This document shows positions 28,352 through 32,687 of a stretch of DNA of 64,000 nt, piece by piece; the stretch's first letter is position 1; the number at the start of each line of letters is the position of its first letter. Below the pieces are notes generated by a model, which saw only the letters and a program-made list of their open reading frames with translations, had not been told where the DNA came from and did not search any database. Origin of the DNA: Pukyongia salina (GTDB lineage: Bacteria; Bacteroidota; Bacteroidia; Flavobacteriales; Flavobacteriaceae); assembly GCF_002966125.1 (NCBI RefSeq), contig NZ_CP027062.1:2542001-2606000 (forward strand), written 5' to 3'. The position numbers were made by a program, and so were the translations under genes.

Positions 28352-30016
28352 TTAATACGCCTCGTCGTGAACATTCTTCACAGCACGGCCCGAGGGATCG
28401 TTCATATTCTTAAAACTTTCATCCCATTCTAACGCCACAGGACTACTACAGGCTACAGAGGGCACAGAAGGTACGCTTAAGGCTGCGGTGTCACTTGGGA
28501 AATGTTCTTCGAAGATAGTACGATAATAGAATTCTTCTTTACTGGTTGGTGTTTGAATAGGGAAGCGGTGATGTGCATTTTTCATTTGCTCATCAGTAAT
28601 TTCGGCATTCACCATTTCTTTAAGAGTGTCTATCCAGCTGTATCCCACACCATCACTAAATTGTTCTTTCTGCCTCCAGGCAACACTCTCCGGTAACATA
28701 TCTTCGAAAGCTTTTCGCAGCACCCATTTTTCCATTCGGCCTTCTGTGATCATTTTGTCTTTCGGATTAAGCCTCATTGCTACATCCATAAACTCTTTAT
28801 CGAGGAACGGTACCCGGCCTTCTATTCCCCAGGCTGCCAGTGATTTGTTAGCCCGTAAACAATCGTACTGATGTAGCTTATCGAGTTTACGAACCGTTTC
28901 TTTGTGAAATTCTTCGGCATTTGGAGCTTTATGGAAATATAGATAGCCTCCAAAGATCTCATCACTGCCTTCTCCACTAAGTACCATTTTAATCCCCATT
29001 GCTTTTATCGCTCTGGCCATTAAGTACATAGGGGTAGATGCTCGCACCGTAGTTATATCGTACGTTTCCAGGTGATAGATCACATCACGTATGGCGTCTA
29101 TGCCTTCCTGAATGGTAAATTTTACCTCGTGATGCACAGTCCCAAGGTAGTCTGCCACAACCCTTGCGGCAGCGAGGTCTGGAGACCCTTCAAGACCGGT
29201 TGCAAAGGAGTGCAATTGAGGCCACCAGGCCTGGGCAGTATCGTCAGTCTCGATGCGCTTATCGGCGTATTTTTTAGCCAGGGCAGAAGTAGCAGAGGAG
29301 TCCAATCCTCCTGACAATAACACACCATACGGCACATCACTCATTAATTGTCTGTGAACTGCGGCATCGAGCGCTGCGCGTAATTCGTCTATAGATGTCT
29401 CGTTATCTTTTACATTTTCATATTCCATCCAATCGCGACTATACCATCTTTTTAACTCACCATCCTTACTGTACAGATAATGCCCCGGGGGGAACAATTC
29501 TATTTTGGTACAAACACCTTCAAGCGCCTTTAATTCGGAAGCAACATAAAAAGTACCGTGTTTATCCCAGCCCATGTAAAGGGGTATAATTCCCATGTGG
29601 TCTCGTGCGATTAAATAAGCATCGTTTTCTGCGTCGTATAGGGCAAATCCGAATATACCATTAAGGTCGTCCAGGAATTTTTCTCCTTTATCTTTATATA
29701 GTGCGAGGATCACTTCGCAGTCGGACTGAGTTTGGAAATTGTAGTTACCTTCATAAGGTTTCCGTAGTTCACGATGATTGTAGATCTCCCCATTAGCCGC
29801 CAGGATTAATTTTTTGTCTTCTGAAAACAAGGGTTGTTTTCCCGAGGTTGGGTCTACAATAGCCAGACGTTCGTGGGCTAATATCGCTTTATCATGATCG
29901 TAAATTCCACTCCAGTCGGGTCCGCGGTGGCGAATACATTTCGCCATGGTTAATAATTGAGGTCGCAACTCTTCCGAAGGTTGCTTGAGGTCGAAGGCAC
30001 ATACAATTCCACACAT
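28352..30016 (-). CDS. asnB: Asparagine synthetase B, glutamine-hydrolysing
   Basis: Protein of 554 residues converting aspartate, glutamine and ATP to asparagine. The glutaminase domain begins with the processed nucleophile (MCGIVCAFD, Cys2) and RHRGPDWSG, followed by ANGEIYNHRELR. The synthetase domain has the PP-loop PYGVLLSGGLDSSATSALA at about 230-248 and LSGEGSDEIFGGYLYF. The length is that of the E. coli AsnB type. The 130 nt upstream contain a poly-Asn leader peptide frame and an intrinsic terminator that can be disrupted by an alternative stem, so expression is probably controlled by attenuation. Confidence 0.97.
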   Translation of the reverse strand: MCGIVCAFDLKQPSEELRPQLLTMAKCIRHRGPDWSGIYDHDKAILAHERLAIVDPTSGKQPLFSEDKKLILAANGEIYNHRELRKPYEGNYNFQTQSDCEVILALYKDKGEKFLDDLNGIFGFALYDAENDAYLIARDHMGIIPLYMGWDKHGTFYVASELKALEGVCTKIELFPPGHYLYSKDGELKRWYSRDWMEYENVKDNETSIDELRAALDAAVHRQLMSDVPYGVLLSGGLDSSATSALAKKYADKRIETDDTAQAWWPQLHSFATGLEGSPDLAAARVVADYLGTVHHEVKFTIQEGIDAIRDVIYHLETYDITTVRASTPMYLMARAIKAMGIKMVLSGEGSDEIFGGYLYFHKAPNAEEFHKETVRKLDKLHQYDCLRANKSLAAWGIEGRVPFLDKEFMDVAMRLNPKDKMITEGRMEKWVLRKAFEDMLPESVAWRQKEQFSDGVGYSWIDTLKEMVNAEITDEQMKNAHHRFPIQTPTSKEEFYYRTIFEEHFPSDTAALSVPSVPSVACSSPVALEWDESFKNMNDPSGRAVKNVHDEAY

Positions 30017-30089: not shown

Positions 30090-30122
30090 AAAAAAACCCG
30101 TCAGATTCAAAAACCTGACGGG
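30090..30122 (-). terminator. Attenuator terminator upstream of asnB
   Basis: Read on the minus strand, CCCGTCAG (30122-30115) pairs with CTGACGGG (30104-30097) in a perfect 8-bp stem, followed by seven U residues (30096-30090). It lies 73 nt before the asnB ATG and 150 nt after the E1 stop. Its 5' arm can also pair with AAAAGCTTG at 30144-30136, so it is conditional. Confidence 0.85.
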
Positions 30123-30144
30123 CGTTATATCGCGACAAGCTTTT
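30109..30144 (-). promoter_or_regulatory. Candidate antiterminator of the asnB leader
   Basis: Minus-strand AAAAGCTTG (30144-30136) can form nine consecutive pairs, two of them G-U, with CAGGTTTTT (30117-30109). An inner GCG/CGC stem (30133-30131 with 30124-30122) closes on ATATAA. This occupies part of the 5' arm of the terminator and so excludes it. The segment begins one nucleotide after the stop codon of the leader peptide. Confidence 0.65.
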
Positions 30145-30198
30145 GCTACGGCATTCTATTGTTATTATTATTGTTGTTATTAAGTAACATCAGCTTGT
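30135..30198 (-). promoter_or_regulatory. Candidate protector (anti-antiterminator) stem of asnB leader
   Basis: ACAAGCT (30198-30192), just before the leader ATG, is the perfect reverse complement of AGCTTGT (30141-30135), just after its stop. In the absence of translation this stem would sequester the antiterminator strand and let the terminator form. Confidence 0.55.
30146..30190 (-). CDS. Poly-asparagine leader peptide of asnB
   Basis: A 14-codon frame reads M-L-L-N-N-N-N-N-N-N-N-R-M-P-stop, with eight consecutive Asn codons (mixed AAT and AAC). It lies 130 nt ahead of asnB on the same strand and is followed immediately by mutually exclusive antiterminator and terminator segments. An in-frame stop at 30224-30226 and no other ATG fix the start at 30190. 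This is the arrangement of his/trp/leu-type leader peptides, whose translation senses charged tRNA for the pathway product. Overlapping it, an eight-codon frame starting at 30216 ends in TGATG with the leader ATG. Translation itself is unproven. Confidence 0.75.
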   Translation of the reverse strand: MLLNNNNNNNNRMP

Positions 30199-30216
30199 GA
30201 TTGTCTTTTGGTTCAT

Positions 30217-30272: not shown

Positions 30273-32687
30273 TTATCGCAATCGAGGATAATCGGAAGGA
30301 TTTGCCTCGTGCATAATAGCATACACCTTTTCAAAAATATCCTCTGCCGAAGGTTTCGAAAAATAATCACCGTCGGTACCATAGGCGGGGCGATGAGGTT
30401 TTGCGGTAAGGGTTTGCGGCTTACTATCCAAATGCCTGTATCCATTCTGCTCATCCAGGATATGTTGTAGTATATAAGCCGAAGCTCCTCCAGGCACGTC
30501 CTCATCGATCACTAAAAGTCGGTTGGTCTTACCAAGACTCTTCACGATATCGTGATTTAGATCGAGTGGAAGCAGGCTCTGCACATCAATGATCTCGGCA
30601 TCGATTCCAACCTGCTGTAGTTCTTTAGCGGCTTCTTCTACAATTCGCAAGGTACTTCCATAGGACACCAGTGTAATATCGGTTCCTTCTTTTACCGTTT
30701 CCACAACTCCAATAGGAGTTCTCAATTGCCCCAGGTTCTTTGGCATCTTTTCTTTTAGGCGATACCCATTAAGGCATTCCACGATAACGGCTGGTTCGTC
30801 ACTTTCTAGCAAGGTGTTGTAAAAACCGGCTGCCTTGGTCATATTTCGGGGTACCAGCAGGTACATCCCTCTAAGTAAATGAATAAGTCCTCCCATCTGT
30901 GATCCGGAGTGCCAGATCCCTTCCAGGCGATGCCCGCGTGTTCTTACTATAAGCGGAGCTTTTTGTTTCCCAACCGTACGGTACCTAACAGTTGCCAGGT
31001 CATCACTCATGATCTGCAGGCAATACAGGATATAATCGAGATACTGGATCTCTGCGATAGGACGCAGCCCGCGCATAGCCAGACCAATTCCCTGGCCCAG
31101 GATGGTCGCCTCTCTAATACCTGTATCGGCAATACGGAGTTGTCCATGTTTTTCCTGTAGTCCTTCCAGACCCTGATTCACATCCCCAATCGCACCACTG
31201 TCTTCACCAAAGACCATTGCTTCCGGAATATTCTTGAAAATATGATCGAAATTATCCCGTAGTACCACACGTCCGTCTACTTCTTCAGCATTTTCGGCAT
31301 AGGTGGGTTTTATTTCTGAAATGTTTGTTGCTTTGTTTTCTGCCTCCGAATACAAATGAGAAGCGTACTTAGGCTGAATGATCTCGAAATAGTTATCTAT
31401 CCAGTCTTCTAATTGTCTTCTTTCGGGGGATTCTTCGGAAATCACATAGCGAAGTGCCTTACGGGCAGCAGCGATGATATCGCGACGTAATGGTTCTTTT
31501 TCTGAAGAAAGATCATTCTTTATTTTTTCAATAAAGTTCTTGTTCGAAGAACTTTCAGCAAGATTCCCTATAAGCGTTATTGCTTCCTGCTGCTCTTTTT
31601 GCTGAGGCGCAATAAAGGCCTGCCAGGCCGCTTTCTTACCGTCCCTAACTTCTTTCTTAATGTCTTTTTCAATGGCTGCCAATTCTTCTTCAGAAGCCAT
31701 ATCATTGGCGATCATCCACTCCCGCATCTTCACGTTACAGTCGAATTCACGCTCCCATTGCAAACGTTCTTCGCTTTTGTACCGTTCGTGTGACCCACTG
31801 GTTGAATGACCTTGTGGTTGTGTTAATTCCTGAACGTGGATAAGAACAGGGACATGTTCGTCCCGGGCGATCGTGCCAGCCTTTTGATAGGTGTCTATAA
31901 GTGCAGCATAATCCCAGCCGTTTACCCTAAGTATCTCATAACCATTTTCGGTGTCTGTTCGCTGGAATCCTTTTAATATCTCTGAGATATTCTCTTTGGT
32001 GGTCTGGTGCTTGGCGTGTACCGAAATACCATATTCGTCGTCCCATATGCTTATTACCATGGGCACCTGAAGTACTCCGGCAGCATTGATGGTTTCCCAG
32101 AATAACCCTTCACTTGTGCTTGCGTTCCCAATCGTTCCCCAGGCAACTTCGTTTCCATTGATGGAGAACTGTGTAAGGTCTTTTACCTCTTTTACATTCC
32201 TGAAGATCTTCGAAGCTTGTGCCAAACCGAGTAGTCTTGGCATTTGTCCGGCAGTAGGGGAGATATCGGCACTACTGTTCTTTTGCTCTGTTAGATTTTT
32301 CCAACTGCCGTCCTCATTCAGGCTGTGAGTGGCAAAATGTCCGCCCATTTGCCGGCCGGCACTCATTGGGTCGGCATCTATATCGGTGTGCGCATATAGT
32401 CCGGCGAAGAACTGTTCTACAGTTAATTCGCCTATAGCCATCATAAAGGTTTGGTCGCGGTAGTACCCACTCCGCCAGTCGCCATTCTTAAATGCCTTAG
32501 CCCACGCTAATTGCGGGACTTCCTTCCCATCTCCAAAGATCCCAAATTTCGCCTTTCCAGTAAGTACTTCTCGTCGCCCTAACAAACTACACTCCCTGCT
32601 TGTAACAGCGATCTTATAATCGTTAAGGACTTCGGCTTTGAAGTCGTCGAAAGAAAGGTTTTTATCTGTTTGAGGATTTGTGTTCAT
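30273..32687 (-). CDS. 2-oxoacid (branched-chain type) dehydrogenase E1, fused alpha and beta subunits
   Basis: Protein of 804 residues combining both E1 subunits of a thiamine-diphosphate 2-oxoacid dehydrogenase. The alpha part (about 1-400) has the thiamine-binding segment WGTIGNASTSEGLFWETINAAG and HSTSGSHERY. The beta part (about 470-804) shows VFGEDSGAIGDVNQGLEGLQ, IADTGIREATILGQGIGLAMRG and the C-terminal LLVIDEDVPGGASAYI. E1 decarboxylates branched-chain or related 2-oxoacids and passes the acyl group to a lipoyl E2, which is not in the window. The fused form is common in Bacteroidota. The promoter is TTG-N20-TACTTTTG, 20 nt before the ATG. Confidence 0.92.
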   Translation of the reverse strand: MNTNPQTDKNLSFDDFKAEVLNDYKIAVTSRECSLLGRREVLTGKAKFGIFGDGKEVPQLAWAKAFKNGDWRSGYYRDQTFMMAIGELTVEQFFAGLYAHTDIDADPMSAGRQMGGHFATHSLNEDGSWKNLTEQKNSSADISPTAGQMPRLLGLAQASKIFRNVKEVKDLTQFSINGNEVAWGTIGNASTSEGLFWETINAAGVLQVPMVISIWDDEYGISVHAKHQTTKENISEILKGFQRTDTENGYEILRVNGWDYAALIDTYQKAGTIARDEHVPVLIHVQELTQPQGHSTSGSHERYKSEERLQWEREFDCNVKMREWMIANDMASEEELAAIEKDIKKEVRDGKKAAWQAFIAPQQKEQQEAITLIGNLAESSSNKNFIEKIKNDLSSEKEPLRRDIIAAARKALRYVISEESPERRQLEDWIDNYFEIIQPKYASHLYSEAENKATNISEIKPTYAENAEEVDGRVVLRDNFDHIFKNIPEAMVFGEDSGAIGDVNQGLEGLQEKHGQLRIADTGIREATILGQGIGLAMRGLRPIAEIQYLDYILYCLQIMSDDLATVRYRTVGKQKAPLIVRTRGHRLEGIWHSGSQMGGLIHLLRGMYLLVPRNMTKAAGFYNTLLESDEPAVIVECLNGYRLKEKMPKNLGQLRTPIGVVETVKEGTDITLVSYGSTLRIVEEAAKELQQVGIDAEIIDVQSLLPLDLNHDIVKSLGKTNRLLVIDEDVPGGASAYILQHILDEQNGYRHLDSKPQTLTAKPHRPAYGTDGDYFSKPSAEDIFEKVYAIMHEANPSDYPRLR

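Follow-up and report, generated by a model that had tools for sequence, protein, structure and literature searches.

How the transcription of asnB is adjusted in Pukyongia salina is the question raised by a short stretch of DNA directly upstream of the gene, where a very small reading frame rich in asparagine codons is followed by a hairpin and a run of T. The window analysed comprises 64,000 nt of contig NZ_CP027062.1 (assembly GCF_002966125.1, positions 2,542,001 to 2,606,000), and positions below count from its first letter. An initial annotation of the window had proposed a tRNA-Asn-sensing attenuator in front of asnB, an interpretation supported by conservation, codon register and covariation in related genomes. 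From sequence comparison and folding models the element is, with a probability of about 0.88, a ribosome-mediated transcription attenuator that senses charged tRNA-Asn and controls asnB.

Organization of the region upstream of asnB

All of the features lie on the minus strand, in the order -7-like box, protector, leader frame, a single C, segment 2, linker, hairpin, T7, 73 nt and asnB. The promoter-like -7 box GATATTTG (30224-30217) carries five of the six fixed positions of the Bacteroidota consensus TAnnTTTG, located at -12 to -5 (PMC9723704), and a transcription start is predicted near 30212. A loose -7-type box was found 31-39 nt 5' of the leader start codon in 19/31 leaders, a count that stands without a shuffled control. 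Segment 1, the protector (ACAAGCTG, 30198-30191), lies directly 5' of the leader start codon and has segment 2 as its partner. The leader frame MLLNNNNNNNNRMP (30190-30146) reads ATG TTA CTT AAT AAC AAC AAT AAT AAT AAC AAT AGA ATG CCG TAG, with eight Asn codons at 30181-30158 and the stop TAG, and agrees to the base with the frame first reported there. Segment 2, the antiterminator strand (AAAAGCTTG, 30144-30136), begins one nt after the leader stop codon and is followed by a conserved linker (TCGCGATAT, 30135-30127) which in part extends the helix between segments 2 and 3 (2:3). Segment 3 (30123-30109) comprises the 5' arm of the terminator and part of its loop and has segment 2 or segment 4 as alternative partners; segment 4 (30107-30090) comprises the 3' arm and the T7 tract.

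The putatively controlled gene, asnB (30016-28352), starts with an ATG at 30016, 73 nt beyond the U tract as originally described, and encodes a glutamine-hydrolysing asparagine synthase B of 554 aa. Its product scores 943.8 bits against NF006949 (cut-off 499) and 465.8 bits against TIGR01536 (cut-off 267.1), and by these two curated models the amino acid of the codon run is the product of the downstream gene. The genome of the window contains one AsnB match and an asnS; no AsnA match was found in it.

When folded at 37 C as isolated stretches the terminator, antiterminator and protector regions gave -18.2, -13.1 and -13.5 kcal/mol respectively, and 199/200 dinucleotide shuffles of the region folded worse than the native sequence (z -3.4). 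Six consecutive AAY codons occur at a single place in the 3.18-Mb genome, namely the leader (three overlapping matches), and the exact terminator pattern also occurs once. It is on the strength of the unique Asn run, the single terminator pattern, the folding relative to shuffles and the conservation described below that the arrangement is judged not to be due to chance. The terminator alone, without conservation, would mean little, since a simple terminator scan found 2 sites against 1.8 expected, which is about background.

Conservation and phylogenetic distribution

The asnB loci compared were the best 80 of 593 stretches (named loci), to which the best 30 places from 149 family genomes (127 with a match) and 7 genus genomes were added. 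Left out before counting were L081 (the window's own genome again), L117-L129 (pattern loci), L047 (7 nt of upstream sequence) and eight loci whose AsnB was identical to that of an earlier locus (L085, L090, L097, L103, L105, L108, L109 and L113). Alignment of these upstream regions, the check originally suggested for the attenuator, revealed conserved Asn codons and a conserved terminator: leader, segment 2 and terminator occur together in 33 of the 107 regions kept, a fraction that is not a prevalence because the loci were the best-matching ones. Thirty-one of the leaders are distinct, L115 (identical to L002, both with the leader MLSSILNNNTLP) being among the 107 and L111 being nearly identical to the window, neither of which is in the 31. 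The automatic table gave 30 regions with both leader and terminator, 5 with the terminator only, 2 with the leader only and 70 with neither; inspection by eye raised the first figure to 33 by adding the leaders of L025 and L082 (GTG start) and the terminator of L086 (one mismatch), while L066 was judged spurious. The remaining 74 regions have no leader, and show three hairpins of an unrelated kind lying over 325 nt upstream, one spurious Asn-containing frame and, by eye, an extra hairpin about 205 nt upstream in L045. L009, also one of the 74, entered the large AsnB tree and the automatic table with a misread frame; no leader was seen by eye in the 300 nt before its true GTG start. In two genomes whose titles place them in other families, L045 (Rufibacter) and L047 (a Chitinophagaceae MAG), asnB shares 82-83% identity with the flavobacterial query, which suggests transfer or contamination.

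Within the genus the leader was present in 7/7 genomes. Cultured relatives that have the element include Luteirhabdus pelagi (L010) and Aequorivita aurantiaca (L006). On an AsnB tree of 106 proteins, built by a quick method, the presence of the leader requires one change as against 27.6 with shuffled labels, which is compatible with a single origin; the element recurs in one clade of the Flavobacteriaceae, whose branch has 52% support. A covariance model built from the 31 leaders matched 49/397 family genomes at E 0.001, and with at least 54 bits it matched 40/397, all at asnB and spanning 25 of the 237 family genera sampled; for G105, G073 and G076 the position of asnB was taken from the AsnB genome search. 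In the large genome searches the model was run under stricter filtering, by which weak matches are lost. Among 295 genomes of the class, few of them from this clade, the model found the window and four weak matches. Matches below 52 bits (9 of the 49 in the family, and G576, G608, G740 and, for the second time, G400 in the class) had no asnB-like start in the stretch retrieved and were not counted. Eleven of 12 such weak loci consist of a hairpin with CCTGTCAGG or CCCGTCAGG (the shorter CCGTCAGG in L177), a T-rich loop and the complement, and L174 differs. Hairpins of the form CCYGTCAGGTTTT..AAACCTGACRGG with a T-rich stretch lie near unrelated genes in family and class genomes (L160-L163, L171-L173, L175-L178); they resemble the asnB terminator and are possibly a common terminator module or repeat.

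At 29 asnB loci of the class (7/29 from the same family, the window's own excluded) the poly-Asn leader was absent from the 27 that could be read, and two class loci, L209 and L210, have a short frame that includes 3 Asn but lack a terminator. When the model was run over 78 loci taken as leaderless it gave 54.2 bits in L103, which is from the genome of L025 and does have the leader; the other seven matches (23.5 to 31.3 bits) lay downstream of asnB or on the opposite strand. A narrow DNA pattern, which found 10/198 genomes and missed the window itself, was superseded by the covariance model.

The leader reading frame

Asparagine accounts for 210 of the 467 residues in the 31 distinct leaders (148 AAT, 62 AAC) compared with 2.9% in AsnB, and the three positions preceding the last Asn, nearest first, are also Asn in 30, 29 and 27 of the 31. 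Some leaders have few Asn codons, from 3 to 5. When loci were picked by segments 2 and 3 alone, with no frame criterion, the same 33 were recovered and none of the other 74. The motif used for this was written with knowledge of the family, but without any criterion of frame. Over the 14 codons that precede the fixed stop position, these 33 loci contain 220 AAY triplets in phase with the stop, compared with 5 and 14 in the two other phases. A run drifting out of frame had been named at the outset as evidence against the attenuator; instead the stop's register was the highest in 32/33 loci, the exception being L025, in which the stop is shifted by 2 nt.

The position of the run is equally constrained. 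From the end of the last Asn codon to the CUUG of segment 2 there are 18 nt in 30/31 leaders (20 in L025), whereas the distance from the start codon to CUUG ranges from 45 to 66 nt, and it follows that the run is anchored to segment 2 and not to the start codon. In L007 one codon fewer between run and stop is accompanied by 3 nt extra after the stop, so that 18 nt are restored. By these comparisons selection acts on the leader as a frame with many Asn codons. Two regularities were not used as evidence because they are circular: the Asn identity of the codon next to the linker, since the last Asn defines it, and the start-to-CUUG distances in multiples of three, which are automatic whenever the stop-to-CUUG offset is. 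In leaders ending in GNP (L008, L010) the Asn of GNP was left out of the run.

The leaders are 12-19 residues long and vary in sequence apart from Asn and the last residue; no conserved peptide sequence beyond Asn and the final Pro or Thr was found in the 31. The residue before the stop is Pro in 23 and Thr in 8 of them (30151-30146 in the window), and CA follows the stop directly in 30/31.

An alternative built on the peptide itself is that the leader acts in the manner of TnaC, as an arrest peptide, with free asparagine or slow termination at the Pro-stop pair holding the ribosome and the Asn run serving as a nascent-chain sensor. A C-terminal Pro slows peptide release, all 31 leaders have Pro or Thr in that position, and a ribosome held at the stop would keep segment 2 masked for longer. 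However, a peptide which varies so freely beyond its Asn and last residue, and whose Asn codons are set by their distance from segment 2 and not from the N terminus, argues against recognition of the chain, and an arrest peptide is given little credence here. Slow release at the Pro-stop pair might prolong the masking of segment 2.

The terminator and its competing helices

The terminator, CCCGTCAG...CTGACGGG at 30122-30097 followed by T7 at 30096-30090, was first described as a perfect 8-bp stem with seven U, which is correct; with G-U and A-U pairs the hairpin extends to 12 pairs (30123-30096) around a core of eight Watson-Crick pairs, and T7 overlaps its last base. Across the 31 leaders 98.0% of cells are paired and two-sided changes occur at 5/12 pairs. 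None of 500 shuffles was as high on pairing, two-sided changes or covariation score, and 6/500 were as high on pair types, which indicates that the terminator covaries strongly.

A conserved hairpin in an intergenic region could be no more than the terminator of the gene upstream, the Asn frame being a low-complexity accident and the promoter of asnB lying further downstream. Terminator-like sites are common, and the upstream gene, which is 2-oxo acid dehydrogenase E1-like and ends at 30273, is co-directional with asnB in the window, as is the longest frame within 1.5 kb upstream in 30/31 leader loci. In L020, however, the longest upstream frame is divergent and leader and terminator are still kept, while the 74 leaderless regions, save for the three distant hairpins, were without a terminator in the automatic scan. 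Neither the 18-nt spacing nor the Asn register would be expected from an accident, and this explanation is considered very improbable.

The helix that would compete with the terminator in an attenuator is formed by segment 2 and CAGGTTTTT (30117-30109). The nine consecutive pairs reported initially are indeed there, two of them G-U, and since both structures use segment 3 the antiterminator and the terminator are mutually exclusive. Its nine-pair core is paired in 97.5% of cells, against at most 69.1% in slid versions. At columns 78:115 six sequences have G-C and three have G-U in place of A-U, and because column 115 is not part of the 12-pair terminator stem the exchange counts in favour of the antiterminator. 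The six G-C sequences sit in separate branches of the AsnB tree. A single two-sided pair was reached by 470/500 shuffles, whereas six such cells were reached by 0/500. A test on independent pairs at columns 78:115 (4 pairs, median p 0.25) had no power, and at the other pairs listed the events were too few to be compared. Covariation of the antiterminator is modest and weaker than that of the terminator. Beyond a U-U mismatch the 2:3 helix is extended by two pairs in 23/31 leaders, in G-C, G-U and A-U forms. The linker sequence UCGCGAUAU (30135-30127) is conserved beyond this extension, with UACCCUAUA instead in some relatives, and could be a pause signal for RNA polymerase.

Support for the protector helix between segments 1 and 2 (1:2) is moderate on comparative grounds. 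ACAAGCT (30198-30192) is complementary to AGCTTGT (30141-30135), as had been noted, and the duplex energy of segments 1 and 2 has a mean of -5.6 compared with -3.25 in shuffles, with 0/200 sets as low. The window and L112 have a C-G pair where most relatives carry U-A. The proposal that the protector sequesters the antiterminator strand is weaker than first put forward: the pairing is good in the window's own lineage but poor in some relatives, being weak in L006, L018, L025, L082 and L087, among others, and a good segment 1 is missing from several leaders; in L082 segment 1 overlaps the GTG start and is cut off by the region analysed. If the helix is extended over the start and stop codons, 83.2% of cells are paired compared with 80.8% in shuffles (35/500 as high), and codon 2 begins with C solely in leaders with a TAG stop (4/4). 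Pairing between the start and stop codon regions is weak by these figures and no more than suggestive.

Folding model and proposed mechanism

Folding was modelled at 25 C for the 31 leaders with a ribosome footprint of 27 nt and the transcript ended before segment 4; an E. coli-like footprint is the basis for the masking geometry. On that geometry a ribosome whose A site is at any of the run's Asn codons would end short of segment 2, and at the stop would cover it. In the folding model a ribosome on the first Asn of the longest run allows the 2:3 helix to form in 29/31 leaders and one on its last Asn in 27/31, as against 2/31 (L007 and L025) for a ribosome at the stop. When the footprint was placed on the last Asn codon 1:2 prevailed in the window and three relatives, a consequence of allowing the helix to close around the ribosome. 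With no ribosome 2:3 was favoured over 1:2 in 23/31 leaders, the protector winning in the window, and 1:2 rose above 0.5 in 6/31. Once the RNA is complete the terminator is the dominant structure whatever the state modelled, so that antitermination must be kinetic, that is co-transcriptional. Switching is also kinetic in known attenuators.

The sequence of events that may be envisaged begins with a short RNA, carrying the leader frame, that would start near 30212. With plentiful Asn-tRNA the pioneer ribosome would pass the Asn codons, reach the stop and cover segment 2, leaving segments 3 and 4 to form the terminator and transcription to stop near 30090. With scarce Asn-tRNA the ribosome would wait on the run; since segment 2 stays clear of the footprint at each of the Asn codons in the run, it could pair with newly made segment 3, and once 2:3 had formed the terminator would come too late and asnB would be transcribed. 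If no ribosome were loaded 1:2 could form and be followed by termination, a basal off state. The stalling logic had been put forward by analogy with the his, trp and leu leaders; order, spacing and gene fit it, while the dominance of the terminator at equilibrium places the switch in the kinetics of transcription.

Control without a ribosome, by a T-box or a metabolite riboswitch, has in its favour that asnB is T-box controlled in many Firmicutes and that the region is structured, but the chance of it is close to nil: no Rfam family, T-boxes included, reached threshold anywhere in the window, the two sub-threshold Rfam matches at this locus are on the other strand and implausible, and what is conserved outside the hairpins is a frame that keeps the register of its stop. 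Across 15 further loci Rfam gave a single match, to Flavo-1 in L160, which does not coincide with the covariance-model match.

If the attenuator operates as proposed, asparagine would join the amino acids that leader-peptide attenuation apparently senses, and the fixed distance between the Asn run and the antiterminator strand is what would be expected if the ribosome footprint is the ruler. The element would also be a compact reporter (about 120 nt) for asking whether transcription-translation coupling exists in Bacteroidota. A further reading, held tentatively and at somewhat less than even odds, is that this is the first Asn-specific attenuator and that its leader frame forms the loop of the protector helix, with the start and stop regions paired, so that any ribosome inside the frame would be reported. 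On that reading a pioneer ribosome in Bacteroidota, where initiation is largely without Shine-Dalgarno pairing, would stay near enough to RNA polymerase to govern termination a few tens of nt further on.

Relation to known attenuators

The his, trp, leu, thr and phe operons of enteric bacteria have classical ribosome-mediated attenuators. They share with the asnB element a leader rich in codons for the product of the pathway, antiterminator and terminator strands together with a protector that is putative here, a U tract and a matching pathway gene, but here the amino acid is asparagine and the adjacent gene asnB. They differ also in that segment 1 here lies 5' of the leader start and segment 2 one nt after the stop, and with segments 1 and 2 so placed the 1:2 helix would enclose the whole frame. 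Asn-specific T-boxes occur in Firmicutes, and a T-box binds tRNA directly; theirs is likewise transcription attenuation answering uncharged tRNA-Asn, whereas here the proposed sensor is a decoding ribosome.

Attenuation of his is mentioned in PMC8305728, and strong clues to leader-peptide attenuation before amino-acid biosynthesis operons have been reported for Flavobacterium psychrophilum, with structured elements before pheA and hisG that are conserved in other genera (PMC9723704). That system belongs to the same family as the window, and the main text of the report contains neither asnB nor asparagine. Among the asnB loci compared here the element is absent from L035, L037, L043 and L055, which are named Flavobacterium and group together, and present in L013, a MAG with the title Flavobacterium sp. 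but a different place in the grouping. In Actinobacteria leader peptides with terminators or attenuators were predicted comparatively before trp, ilvB and leuS, and that paper mentions neither asparagine nor asnB (PMC1262725). Small frames reminiscent of leader peptides have been described in B. thetaiotaomicron (PMC7366714), and the survey of Lopatovskaya et al. 2010, cited in PMC4833913, is likely to be relevant. No earlier description of an asparagine leader attenuator was found in the literature searched, a scope outside which most subscription journals fall. The mechanism is therefore of a known kind, its class being classical and leader attenuation in flavobacteria having already been proposed, and its asparagine specificity is apparently undescribed.

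A second leader was found in the same genome. Upstream of hisG (L222, G000:C1 near 2902800, minus strand) is a His-rich leader, MNYQQQHHHHIIFHAHAR, which ends in a stop and is followed by a terminator-like hairpin, ACCCGTTTGAG-CTTT-CTCAAACGGGT, ending in a T run. This single locus is a probable histidine attenuator by its sequence, and with a His-rich leader and a terminator before hisG the lineage appears to use leader attenuation for histidine too. It was found by looking upstream of HisG; a poly-His pattern gave 11 matches, and the three that were read included no leader. Elsewhere in the genome CACCATCACCATCAC occurs seven times at a spacing of 492-498 nt, in a large tandem repeat (G000:C1:710096-713092).
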